Shown one piece after another: positions 1-21,890 of a DNA stretch of 32,648 nt (positions are counted from its first letter, which is position 1; every line of letters begins with the position of its first letter). The stretch is from Magnetococcales bacterium (GTDB lineage: Bacteria > Pseudomonadota > Magnetococcia > Magnetococcales > Magnetaquicoccaceae), in NCBI GenBank assembly GCA_015232705.1, contig JADFZD010000005.1, forward strand, positions 1 to 32,648, read 5' to 3'. A model generated the notes under the pieces. The model was not told the origin of the DNA. It worked only from the letters and a program-made list of their open reading frames with translations, and made no database searches. A program made the position numbers and the translations under genes.

Positions 1-30
1 ACGAAAAAGACGAAAAATCAATACAAGAAA

Positions 31-86
31 CCTCGGAGGCTCTGCCTCCGAACCTCCGCCGGGGACCTTCGGTCCCTGGACCCCTG
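31..86 (-). repeat. R1 double-hairpin repeat, copy a
   Basis: Two consecutive hairpins are visible: GGAGGC-TCT-GCCTCC, then GGGACC-TTC-GGTCCC, joined by GAACCTCCGCC and ending in TGGACCCC. The same arrangement with different stem sequences occurs at seven other places in the window. The GGACCC end faces dapF, 67 nt from its start codon. The A-rich sequence to the left (AATACAAGAAACCTC) also resembles the flank of other copies, so this is probably the right end of a longer composite that begins before the window. Confidence 0.75.
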
Positions 87-1552: not shown

Positions 1553-1600
1553 AGTCCCTTGAATCCCACCAGAGGCCATTGGCCTCTGGACCCCCTCCAG
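1553..1600 (-). repeat. R1 double-hairpin repeat, truncated copy c
   Basis: The sequence TCCCTTGAATCCCACC followed by the hairpin AGAGGCCATTGGCCTCT and GGACCCC matches the right half of R1. The left arm of the first hairpin is missing; compare CCCAAGGGCTTTGCCCTTG in the copy at 19242. The truncation lies just right of MITE copy A. Confidence 0.65.
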
Positions 1601-1610
1601 TAATTACCAA

Positions 1611-1880
1611 ATATCCCGAGATGGTTGCGGTTAAACCGCACCCATCTCGGGATACGTCGTTTTCCAACAGGCCGCGTACACGATGTGGGAGTCGATTCCA
1701 AAAAACGGAAACGACTCCCACGAAGGCGGCGCGCCGCGCATTTTTCGCGAAAGACGCGAAAAATGCTTCTTTTGAAGAGCGCGCCAACGTCAAAATCAAT
1801 CTCCTGGGTGATGAACCTCCCAGACCATTTCTTCTTTTTCACCCGTAAAAACGACACATTCCAAAATGAGTGCGGTTTAA
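1611..1880 (+). repeat. R2 multi-hairpin repeat, copy 1
   Basis: About 85-90% identical by eye to 9985-10233. It holds an inverted repeat TATCCCGAGATGG...CCATCTCGGGATA, a 37-nt hairpin at 1685-1721 (15-bp arms with one mismatch, 7-nt loop), a 29-nt hairpin at 1738-1766 (GCATTTTTCGC/GCGAAAAATGC), and a tail with GTCAAAATCAA and CGACACATTCC. Several ORFs in the track cross it on both strands, but the palindromic structure explains them better than coding does. No gene is seen between here and 2169. The stretch from 1881 to 2090 is AT-rich and holds nothing else I recognise. Confidence 0.75.
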
Positions 1881-9918: not shown

Positions 9919-9976
9919 TGGGGTCCAGAGGCCCATGGCCCCTGGTGGGGTGCAGGGCAAAGCCCTGAGGTTTTGT
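9919..9976 (+). repeat. R1 double-hairpin repeat, copy d (left end of a composite)
   Basis: GGGTCCAGAGGCC...GGCCCCTGG, then TGGGGTGCAGGGC-AAA-GCCCTGAGG and TTTTGTATTTTT. The GGGTCC end faces the nucleotidyltransferase start. Together with the inverted copy at 10326 it brackets an R2 copy. Confidence 0.8.
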
Positions 9977-9984
9977 ATTTTTCG

Positions 9985-10233
9985 TCATTAACCGCACCCA
10001 TCACGGGATACGTCGTTTTCCAACAGGCCGCGTGCAAGATGTGGGAGTCGTTTCCAAAAAACGGAAACGACTCCCACGAAGGCGGCGCGCCGCGCATTTT
10101 TCGCAAAAGACGCGAAAAATGCTTCTTTTGAAGAGCGCGGTAAAGTCAAAACCCTGGGAGATGAATTTCCCAGACCCTCTCTTTTTCTCACCACTAAAAA
10201 CGACACATTCCAAGCTGGGTGCGGTTTAAGAAC
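9985..10233 (+). repeat. R2 multi-hairpin repeat, copy 2
   Basis: Near-identical partner of 1631-1880. It contains the perfect 37-nt hairpin at 10041-10077 (GTGGGAGTCGTTTCC / GGAAACGACTCCCAC, loop AAAAAAC), the 29-nt hairpin at 10094-10122, the small stem CTGGGA...TCCCAG near 10157, and the CGACACATTCC tail. Confidence 0.8.
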
Positions 10234-10325
10234 GCGACAAAAAACAATCAAACACGGAAAAAAAAGGAGATCTCAAAAAATACAAGAGAAGTCAAAGTCA
10301 AAAGCTCACAGGAAAAATCATACAG

Positions 10326-10381
10326 CCCGGGGGCGCTGTCTCCGAACCTCCGCCGGGGGAGATAATCTCACCCGGACCCCC
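10326..10381 (-). repeat. R1 double-hairpin repeat, copy e (right end of a composite)
   Basis: Minus-orientation R1: a stem around CCCGGGGGCG, then CTCCGAACCTCCGCC and the second stem CGGGGGAGATAATCTCACCCGG, ending GGACCCC. It lies 47 nt upstream of the engB start, so it may be in the engB leader. Confidence 0.7.
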
Positions 10382-11085: not shown

Positions 11086-11223
11086 GCGTGTTGACATATG
11101 AAGGCAGCGAGCCTTCAGACAAGGCGCGACGACCCGAGCAGCGCAGCATACACGGTCGTATGTGAGCAACGAAGGGGCGTCGCAACGCCGTATCAAGGCA
11201 GCTGACACACTATGTCAACACGC
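11086..11223 (+). repeat. R3 repeat, copy 1, with 12-bp inverted ends
   Basis: Perfect terminal inverted repeat GCGTGTTGACAT / ATGTCAACACGC around a 138-nt unit that contains GACAAGGCGCGACGACCCGAG and CGTCGCAACGCCGTATCAAGG. It starts immediately after the engB stop codon. A second copy is at 12823 and an inverted copy at 11328. Confidence 0.8.
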
Positions 11224-11325
11224 CCTAAAGTCAAAATCAAGACCCTGGGAGATGAATCTCCCAGACACTCTTTTTTTTTCACCAGTAAAAGCGACACATT
11301 CCAAGCTGGGTGCGGTTTAATTAGT
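11221..11325 (+). repeat. R2 repeat, 3' half only
   Basis: AAAGTCAAAATCAAGACCCTGGGAGATGAATCTCCCAG followed by a T-run, CACCAGTAAAAGCGACACATTCC and GTGCGGTTTAA match the last 100 nt of the R2 copy at 9985. The hairpin half is absent and the R3 right end sits at the break, so R3 probably landed in, or recombined with, an R2 copy. Confidence 0.7.
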
Positions 11326-11327
11326 GC

Positions 11328-11612
11328 GCCAACGGCCTTGATACAGCGTTGCGACACCCCTTTGCTGCTCACATTCGGACATGCATGCCGCACAACTCTC
11401 GTCGCGTCTTGTCTGAAAACGCACTGCCTTCATCCTGGATCTGCCAGTTGCAAAGGATGGCATGAACGAACTTATTGGTTCCCTTGGTGAATTGCAGGAA
11501 ACCGCAGTTACCTTGTCCGTCATGAGGCTTTCTTGCTATTTTCCATATGGATCAAAATGTTGTCTCATGTGAGCCATCGCAACTGCCGGATCCAGATTCA
11601 AATGTCAACACG
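11328..11612 (-). repeat. R3 repeat, copy 3 (inverted), split by a MITE
   Basis: The reverse complement matches R3: GGCCTTGATAC, GTTGCGACRCCCC, TGCTGCTCACAT, GTCGCGTCTTGTCTGA and CTGCCTTCAT are recognisable up to 11432. The expected end ATGTCAACACG appears only at 11602, after the 155-bp MITE copy B. The other end has lost a clear GTGTTGACA. The sequence is more diverged than the two direct copies. Confidence 0.65.
11438..11592 (+). mobile_element. 155-bp MITE-like element, copy B
   Basis: Ends GATCTGCCAGTTG and CAACTGCCGGATC form an inverted pair. The inside shares ATTGGTTC, CCATATGGATCAA and GTTACCTT with copy C, and ATCAAAATGTTGTCTCA with copy A. It lies inside an inverted R3 copy, which reads CTGCCTTCAT on one side and ATGTCAACAC on the other. 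A target duplication cannot be fixed with certainty. Confidence 0.75.
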
Positions 11613-12822: not shown

Positions 12823-12961
12823 CGTGTTGACACAGAAAGGCAGCGAGCCTTCCGACAAGGCGCGACGACCCGAGCAGCGCAGCATACAAGGGAGTATGTG
12901 AGCAGCTTTAGGCGTCGCAACGCCGTATCAAGGCCGCCGCTGACGCACGGCTGTCAACACG
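12823..12961 (+). repeat. R3 repeat, copy 2
   Basis: Terminal inverted repeat CGTGTTGACA / TGTCAACACG around a 139-nt unit. It shares GGCAGCGAGCCTTC, GACAAGGCGCGACGACCCGA, GCAGCGCAGCATACA and GTCGCAACGCCGTATCAAGGC with copy 1. It lies directly upstream of wecB (minus strand), between wecB and asmA. Confidence 0.8.
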
Positions 12962-18842: not shown

Positions 18843-18885
18843 GAGGGCGGATCACGCGCAACTCTGCGTTTGAAAACGGATCGTG

Positions 18886-18935
18886 TCCAGGGGCCAATGG
18901 CCCCTGGTGGGATCCAAGGGCAACGCCCCTGAGAC
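18886..18935 (+). repeat. R1 double-hairpin repeat, copy f (left end of a composite)
   Basis: TCCAGGGGCC-AAT-GGCCCCTGG, then TGGGATCC and AAGGGC-AAC-GCCCCT. It starts 44 nt after the dsrK stop with the GTCC end facing dsrK, and may serve as its terminator. Confidence 0.75.
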
Positions 18936-18959
18936 TTGGACTTGAATTTTATGGTGCGT

Positions 18960-19241
18960 CTTTACAAAGAAAAAAATTTCACGTTTTTTGTGAAATTTTT
19001 TAAGCGTGCGCATTGCTCTTTGGAGACCATTTTTGGGGGGTGCAAAAGGTCTCCAAAGACCAATGCCAAATCAGACCGCCTAAGACGGCGCAACGCAGAG
19101 GGCCATACACGCCCCTTTCGTTGCCAAAGGCGCAACGAAAGGGGCGCATAAAATGCACGCGCGCTTGCGCGATTTTCACAAAGATCGTGAAAAATCGCTT
19201 ATCGTTAAAGGCACGCGAAAGTCAAAATCATAAAGACACAT
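18960..19241 (+). repeat. R2-family repeat, diverged copy
   Basis: Same order as R2 with different sequence. There is an AT stem AAATTTCAC/GTGAAATTT at 18974-18998 followed by Ts, and a stem TTTGGAGACC/GGTCTCCAAA at about 19019-19060. A 37-nt hairpin lies at 19110-19146 (CGCCCCTTTCGTTGC / GCAACGAAAGGGGCG, loop CAAAGGC) and a 30-nt hairpin at 19169-19198. The tail keeps GTCAAAATCA and GACACATTCC. No coding is proposed. Confidence 0.7.
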
Positions 19242-19293
19242 TCCCAAGGGCTTTGCCCTTGAATCCCACCAGGGCGATAATCGCCCTGGACCC
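19242..19293 (-). repeat. R1 double-hairpin repeat, copy g (right end of a composite)
   Basis: CCCAAGGGC-TTT-GCCCTTG, then AATCCCACC and CCAGGGCGATAATCGCCCTGG, ending GGACCC. It lies 76 nt before the rph start. With copy f it closes a composite of about 408 bp. Confidence 0.8.
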
Positions 19294-21270: not shown

Positions 21271-21335
21271 GGGGGTCCGGGGACGATGATCGCCCCCGGC
21301 GGAGGTTCGGAAGGCTCAAGCCTCCGAGGTTTTGT
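21271..21335 (+). repeat. R1 double-hairpin repeat, copy h
   Basis: GGGGGTCCGGGG-ACGATGATCG-CCCCCGG, then CGGAGGTTCGG and AGGCTCAAGCCTCCGAGG with TTTTGTATTATT. It begins 20 nt after the hemW stop with the GGGTCC end facing it. The matching inverted R1 is missing to the right, where other elements are inserted. Confidence 0.8.
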
Positions 21336-21349
21336 ATTATTACTTTTAT

Positions 21350-21890
21350 CTATATGGGCACCTTTCAAAGAAAAATTTTTTCACGATTTTTGTGGAAAGA
21401 ATGTCCCGCCAGCCAAGGCTTACGGGATCGTTGTGCGCCTTTGGCAAAACAATCCCGCGAACTTGGCCAAAGAAAGAATTGACCGCCGAAGGCGGTTAAA
21501 CCGTCGCGCACCTCGTCCATGTTGCCAAAGAGGCAATCGCGACGCCGTTGCTGCCTTCGGTGGGATGATAGGGTTGGCGTGCATGAGCCAAGGGTTGGCC
21601 TCCTTTGGCGGCTTGCTTGGGGCAAGGCGAAGAGGCGTCGTTTTGCCAAAAGCGCAAAACGACGCCTCTTTCAACTTAGATCCGGCAGTTGCGGGTGATT
21701 GCGTGAGCTAACATATTGGTTCATTTGGTGAAGTGTAAGAAACCGAAGTTACCTTATTGATAATGAGGCCTTCTTCCGATTTGCCATATGGATCAAGAGG
21801 TTGCCGCAGGTGATTGCCCGCAATTGCGGATCTAGGTTCAAGTCTGCGCGCAAGCGATTTTCACAAGAACCGTGAAAATCGCTTTTTTCG
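21350..21890 (+). repeat. R2-family repeat, copy interrupted by MITE C
   Basis: Starts with an AT stem (AAATTTTTTCACGA...), followed by GCCGAAGGCGG-type stems. The 37-nt hairpin is at 21632-21668 (GAGGCGTCGTTTTGC / GCAAAACGACGCCTC, loop CAAAAGC) and the 29-nt hairpin at 21854-21882 (GCGATTTTCAC / GTGAAAATCGC, followed by six Ts). The two hairpins are adjacent in other copies but here are separated by the MITE. The second hairpin plus T-run is terminator-like. No gene was recognised in the whole of 21252-22247. Confidence 0.65.
21679..21832 (+). mobile_element. 154-bp MITE-like element, copy C
   Basis: Ends GATCCGGCAGTTG and CAATTGCGGATC. The inside aligns with copy B (ATTGGTTCATTTGGTGAA, GTTACCTT, CCATATGGATCAA). 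It is flanked by TTTCAA on the left and GGTTCAAG on the right, which may be a duplicated TTCAA or part of longer ends. It interrupts an R2-family repeat. Confidence 0.75.

Follow-up and report, generated by a model that had tools for sequence, protein, structure and literature searches.

The window analysed here, a stretch of 32,648 nucleotides, is the whole contig C338 of a Magnetococcales genome (G000; 2.05 Mb, 58% complete, 382 contigs). Two of its spacers, one upstream of engB (positions 9919-10381) and one upstream of rph (18886-19293), are filled with repeats that recur along the contig and are hereafter called R1 (a hairpin module followed by a T-rich tract), core C (about 320 nt with five hairpins, H_A to H_E) and R2 (about 240 nt). 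The genome is incomplete and fragmented, and the gene starts, assigned with a simple purpose-written gene finder, are approximate. No Rfam family matched above its gathering score anywhere in the window, and no tRNA or tmRNA genes were detected in it. The window harbors the following copies of the three repeats:

28-84, minus strand: R1 module at the contig start, with its inner side cut off (profile match)
1555-1594, minus strand: R1 module beside an R2 MITE, with no core C between them (profile match)
1634-1877, plus strand: R2 MITE with TA at both sides (sequence and border census)
9920-9974, plus strand: R1 module, left end of the shell (profile match)
9953-9967, strand of the plus R1: inner hairpin of the left shell R1, which with the T-rich tract after it forms a terminator-like site (terminator scan)
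9990-10226, plus strand: R2, an IS630-type MITE (24-copy alignment, border census, IS630 element with matching ends)
10326-10380, minus strand: R1 module, right end of the shell (profile match; orthologous engB spacer)
11221-11317, plus strand: partial R2 MITE, right end only (profile match)
18885-18937, plus strand: R1 module, left end of a complete composite (profile match)
18953-19145, minus strand: core C of the complete composite, hairpins B to E as modelled (covariance model, 132.7 bits)
18942-19236, minus strand: the same core C as matched by nhmmer, with hairpin A to the right of the modelled part, up to about 19236
19249-19293, minus strand: R1 module, right end of the complete composite (profile match), with a terminator-like inner hairpin (19263-19243, minus strand)
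21272-21333, plus strand: R1 module of a further, broken composite (profile match)
21355-21543, minus strand: core C of the broken composite (covariance model, 115.7 bits)
21596-21674 and 21839-21888: further core C fragments of the broken composite (fragment matches)

In the sequence-only reading of this contig, the two spacers shared one arrangement, i.e. an inverted R1 pair around an R2 core. The R1 pairs are indeed present in both, but the cores differ: the engB spacer is an R1 shell enclosing an R2 MITE, with no core C outside R2, and the rph spacer is a complete R1(+)-C-R1(-) composite (18885-19293), with C on the minus strand. The sequence of this core is different from that of R2 and resembles only a part of it. 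The R2 copy in the engB spacer is followed by TA at its right border and shows TT at the left one, where TA is expected. The copies of the composite in the window have decayed outer ends and no target duplication.

Two other repeats lie in the same contig. One, of about 160 nt and with inverted ends GATCCGGCAGTTG...CAACTGCCGGATC, occurs at 1371-1533, 11429-11602 and 21669-21827 and is probably another MITE; the last copy (about 21670-21827) sits within the broken composite starting at 21272. The other, with GGCGTGTTGACATA-type ends (11087-11404 and 12823-12937), is possibly a MITE as well; its copy at 11087-11404 encloses the partial R2 (about 11221-11320) and looks like an element within an element.

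The arrangement of the three repeats was then analysed with R1 and core C profiles in 503 kb of G000 and 827 kb of G008, its sister species (1.33 Mb from two species). A total of 183 R1 and 120 core C copies were retrieved, the numbers for G000 being lower bounds since many of its contigs end inside these repeats. To the left of C, R1 lies on the plus strand in 63 cases and on the minus strand in one; to the right, the minus orientation is found in 74 cases and the plus orientation in none. Hence, 137 of the 138 R1 neighbours of C have a consistent outward orientation (binomial p about 8e-40, a value that ignores the kinship of the copies), and 175 of the 183 R1 copies have no other repeat on the outer side for 350 nt; the rule that the GGGTCC end of R1 faces a gene, proposed from the window, holds beyond it. 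On the inner side, core C is the neighbour of 137/183 R1 copies, and 22/183 have no inward neighbour at all. Complete R1(+)-C-R1(-) composites number 47, and those without R2 measure 348-581 nt (median 430). The core is directional, with the H_A side usually carrying an R1 of the type GGGGTCCAGGGGCC... and the H_E side the other one (...GGACCTTCGGTCCCCGGACCCC). The composite is short, non-coding, multi-copy (at least about 60 core matches per genome) and intergenic, only 1 of the 164 repeat islands lying inside a called gene, as bacterial MITEs are.

The five hairpins of core C are strongly supported by covariation. An earlier alignment of the core, from which gappy columns had been removed, gave a poor consensus fold, and alignment A1 was used instead. 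In a MAFFT alignment of 14 cores not fitted to any structure, 22 of the 44 consensus pairs have two-sided changes, a number reached by none of 500 shuffles, and sliding the partners by one column lowers the pairing from 93.7% to 48% or less. The covariance model built from this alignment was used to align 92 cores, in which 95.4% of the cells are paired and two-sided changes amount to 596 versus 148 in shuffles; since the larger alignment was fitted to the model, the 14-core one represents the more independent evidence. Some of the two-sided changes look like swaps of whole hairpins and, therefore, not all of them are separate compensatory mutations. Moreover, the complementarity of the arms could also be maintained by arm-to-arm correction of palindromic DNA. 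In two genomes of another family of the order, G029 and G039 (L319-L329, alignment A3), positions A/E and B/D are occupied by discrete alternative hairpins that recur there. On the C+ strand, G-U pairs exceed C-A ones (125 versus 71; 39 versus 18 sequences, p 0.0075), although the core has no preferred orientation with respect to the direction of genes (28 same, 25 opposite); this makes the strand evidence weak and mixed, and a strand-specific RNA tied to host transcription was rejected on the ground of the unbiased orientation.

The R1 modules had been regarded as the ends of the cassette. They do lie near them, but the outermost ends are IS66-type sequences, GTAAC[N]ATTCAG, placed about 28 nt outside R1, beyond GGGTCC. 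GTAAC ends were recognised in 21/92 cases in G000 (0.2 expected) and in 6/82 in G008 (score of at least 9; 0.4 expected). Exact 8-bp direct repeats flank them in three of the seven paired copies from these two species, all three in G000:

L097 10498-11241: 8-bp target duplication ATTTTTTC
L269 15509-15958: 8-bp target duplication CGCACTTT
L278 4691-5104: 8-bp target duplication TTTTTCTC

By comparison, random pairings of flanks match on average at 2.4 of 8 positions. The duplications anticipated directly at the GGGTCC ends were not found: apart from the exact GTAAC-side 8-mers, the words that the two flanks share are only slightly longer than those of random pairings (mean 5.42 versus 5.22, p about 0.08), since the outermost ends of the cassette are the GTAAC ones further out. 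The tetranucleotide GTAA is typical of IS66 ends. The congener G003 harbors a 1722-bp IS66-family element (L293 1345-3066; PF03050) with GTAACTATTCAGCACCCC ends and an exact 8-bp duplication, i.e. an IS66 element of a relative whose ends match those of the composite. In G000 itself, we found no IS66 element with exactly the ends of the composite; its IS66 copies L289 and L304, considered as the exact parent, have no matching ends within the flanks examined. Duplications of 8 bp are also known from the IS66 elements ISPpa5a and ISPpa7 of Paracoccus (PMC3281130). Those of the composite point to a mechanism other than that of REP/REPIN sequences with their RAYT (Y1-type) transposase. Terminal inverted repeats together with target-site duplication are thus seen among the GTAAC-ended copies but not in most G008 copies, and the mobility of the unit is well supported for copies with GTAAC ends.

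The comparison of orthologous sites revealed the empty sites in relatives that a mobile cassette should leave. Two complete composites of G000, L285 3968-4459 and L092 3741-4121, correspond in G008 to 13 and 24 nt, respectively, and a partial one (L284 6962-7196) to 4 nt. The spacer upstream of rph is short and empty in G001 (another congener), G002 and G004; it contains variant R1-bounded repeats in G003, G005 and G007, and an unrelated hairpin in G006 and G010. In the spacer upstream of engB, G008 retains only the outer hairpin of the right R1. This presence/absence at orthologous sites, typical of MITEs, is seen with junctions that are not placed to the base, and loss is not fully separable from gain because the flanks of the empty sites are too diverged to place them. 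Other spacers are occupied in both G000 and G008 (L282/L222, L102/L217 and L104/L238), L104 holding an R2 that its ortholog L238 lacks. In one orthologous spacer (L272 9507-9930 in G000, L246 5348-5970 in G008), the core has opposite orientations in the two species, the outcome of either a separate insertion or an inversion of the core between its R1 arms.

Regarding the gene context, spacers with R1 or C represent 30/123 of the convergent, 58/693 of the codirectional and 8/122 of the divergent ones (convergent versus divergent, p 0.00015); these occupied fractions, as well as densities, are not genome averages because the contigs examined were chosen partly for containing the repeats. R1 lies at a median of 32.5 nt from the 3' end of a gene. 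Read from the gene towards the core, it is terminator-like (a G+C-rich hairpin followed by a T-rich tract) in 117/172 copies, versus 0/172 on the other strand and 4/172 in shuffled sequences. Thus, of a terminator acting in both orientations only the inward one is predicted, and R1 reads as a putative intrinsic terminator inward from the gene only. The bias towards convergent genes also arises from mere tolerance of insertions at such places.

The alignment of 24 copies of R2 revealed sharp ends (AACCGCACCCA...TGGGTGCGGTT), and the exact pattern of these ends retrieved three public records, all from Magnetococcales. Among the 22 copies with both ends, 17 have TA on the left, 15 have it on the right and 11 have it at both borders. 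Moreover, the congener G001 harbors a 1230-bp IS630 element (L158 388-1617) whose ends match those of R2, with TA on both sides and a transposase scoring 154 bits against the NCBIfam IS630 model (cut-off 100). In the DNA examined, 23 of 46 R2 copies have neither R1 nor core C within 350 nt, and R2 is the inward neighbour of only 17/183 R1 copies. R2 as the core of the composite was, therefore, ruled out, because it has TA-flanked ends of its own and half of its copies are solitary: the mutual independence of R1 and R2, which would have argued against a cassette built from them, is largely observed, but it does not extend to R1 and C (137/183). R2 is an independent IS630-type MITE, often inserted into or beside the cassette. 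Since its interior resembles the right half of the cassette (H_D, H_E and a reduced R1), the capture of this half probably gave rise to R2. IS630 ends of the R2 type surround quite a different cargo in another genome of the Magnetococcales (L147 2618-2799, with CGTCATTCCCGCG...GGGATGACG repeats).

The same architecture was found in G029 and G039, where the core model scores up to 75 bits. In nine copies, R1 is reduced (GGGGTCTGGGGGATTGCCCCCAGGGTTTTGA), the closing stems are long and the hairpins number five. GTAAC-like ends, for the most part GTAACTGCCCAGGTAC, occur as pairs in six copies, two of which also show exact 8-bp duplications (AAAAATAT and ACAATATA). Taking these copies together with those of G000 and G008, no more than 5 of the 13 paired copies have intact target duplications. 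A search for an IS66 element bearing GTAACTGCCCAGGTAC at its two ends found none. The similarity of these copies implies, therefore, a like cargo between two IS66-like end subtypes and, partly, between IS630 ends.

On the whole, we consider it likely that the composite is an IS66-type MITE with a conserved five-hairpin core between two inward predicted terminators. The architecture, the covariation, the ends, the target duplications, the presence/absence, the orientation and the gene-context bias are all read directly from the DNA; from them we infer which transposase moves the cassette, termination at R1 in the cell and the reason why the hairpins are kept. From the outside in, each end consists of the often decayed GTAAC[N]ATTCAG inverted repeat and then of R1, which reads as a terminator for transcription entering from the flanking gene; the core with its five ordered hairpins forms the interior. 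The cassette would most likely be moved in trans by an IS66-family transposase, giving the 8-bp target duplication. It persists chiefly a short way past stop codons, most of all where genes converge and its two inward terminators would stop transcription arriving from either side. R2 is a second and independent MITE with IS630 ends, often located in cassettes. The single non-coding mobile cassette of the sequence-only reading is in this way upheld by the order, the orientation, the empty sites, the 8-bp duplications and the conserved ends, with C in place of R2 as its core.

The outer ends raise the question of which unit is kept. In G008, R1 and the core are well conserved and the outer GTAAC ends are usually unrecognisable, so that the moving unit or the route may differ there: either the ends decay after insertion and R1-C-R1 is preserved by selection or gene conversion, or R1-C-R1 also moves by another route. 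R1-C-R1 itself might be the unit kept or moved, the IS66-type ends being only one of several vehicles that acquired it. In favor of this, conservation in G008 drops about 8 nt outside GGGG, and similar cores are found between GTAACNATTCAG ends, between GTAACTGCCCAGGTAC ends and, in part, inside IS630 ends. However, some G008 ends are visibly decayed GTAAC ends, which would be compatible with simple decay, the R1 copies were found through their own conservation, which biases the contrast, and no direct-repeat signature was seen at the R1 border; we regard this possibility as rather doubtful. A related idea is that this structured nucleic-acid cassette has its own function, whether as RNA or as folded DNA, and that selection maintains it, the unrelated transposon ends around it being interchangeable: two IS66-like end subtypes and, in part, IS630 ends would carry the conserved five-hairpin, double-terminator cargo. 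We consider it unlikely.

An immobile host element, either a bidirectional terminator or a structured RNA at fixed positions, would fit the tight placement after stop codons, the convergent bias, the terminator-like character of R1 in one direction only, the strong covariation and the orthologous spacers occupied in both species. Nevertheless, it is contradicted by the exact duplications of 8 bp that flank conserved inverted ends in two families, and neither the orthologous spacers lacking the composite, nor the dozens of copies per genome, nor the core orientation, which is unbiased with respect to genes, would be expected from it; this explanation appears very improbable. We give hardly any credit to the idea of independent REP-like palindromes (R1) and unrelated repeats merely sharing spacers, which would account for the isolated R1 copies and for the R2 copies found alone: the almost invariable relative orientation of R1 and C contradicts it, and the complete composites are of similar size and are absent as wholes at orthologous sites. 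The IS66-type MITE remains the reading that we prefer.

The usual view of bacterial MITEs is that of simple remnants with inverted repeats. The MITE harbored here by several genera of a single order has five ordered hairpins with strong covariation as its core, and both of its ends bear a directional terminator-like module; it is present in dozens of copies in the best-sampled genomes, and a second MITE family, R2, carries half of it. If the terminators work, the cassette would add or replace the 3' ends of host genes wherever it inserts, and the reason why mobile elements keep an elaborate structure would become testable. The cassette also explains many of the repeats between genes, and of the contig breaks, in these assemblies. 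We found no published description of the R1-C-R1 composite: in the literature searched, there was no paper on miniature inverted-repeat elements in Magnetococcales or on repetitive extragenic palindromes in magnetotactic bacteria, and none of the papers on Magnetococcus, insertion sequences and repeats is, judging from titles and the openings of abstracts, about such a composite.

The nearest parallel to the Magnetococcales system is the set of pneumococcal BOX, RUP and SPRITE repeats, which form clusters, are inserted into each other and occur in excess between convergent genes (PMC3049150, PMC10969869, PMC2229807). The BOX elements of Streptococcus pneumoniae (PMC3049150) are likewise composite, modular, multi-copy and intergenic, with a strong predicted folding and an excess between convergent genes; their modules and sequence differ, and the composite has IS66-type ends, five covarying ordered hairpins and a terminator-like module at each end. 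RUP, which is most probably mobilised by IS630-Spn1, resembles R2 in being short, non-autonomous and located at TA, with ends matching an IS630 element (PMC2229807), whereas it is 107 bp long versus about 240 nt, differs in sequence and lacks the half of another element's core that R2 carries. SPRITE (PMC3049150) is a mobile-looking repeat similar to a rho-independent terminator and strongly enriched between convergent genes; it consists of a single hairpin with a T-rich tract, in contrast to the two inward terminator-like modules around a core. Outside this set, the IS66-family elements ISPpa5a and ISPpa7 (PMC3281130) share the 8-bp direct repeats, and the congener IS66 element L293 has near-identical terminal bases; unlike these insertion sequences, the composite has no transposase gene and would be a non-autonomous derivative. 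YPAL/RU-2 of Yersinia (PMC2229807) is also a palindromic intergenic mobile element with internal inverted repeats and is not A+T-rich, but it measures 168 bp and has duplications of 3 to 26 bp, versus about 430 nt and exact 8-bp duplications in the composite. The Magnetococcales system unites these pneumococcal-type features in one element; its sequences and the IS family of its ends are different, and its core has five hairpins.
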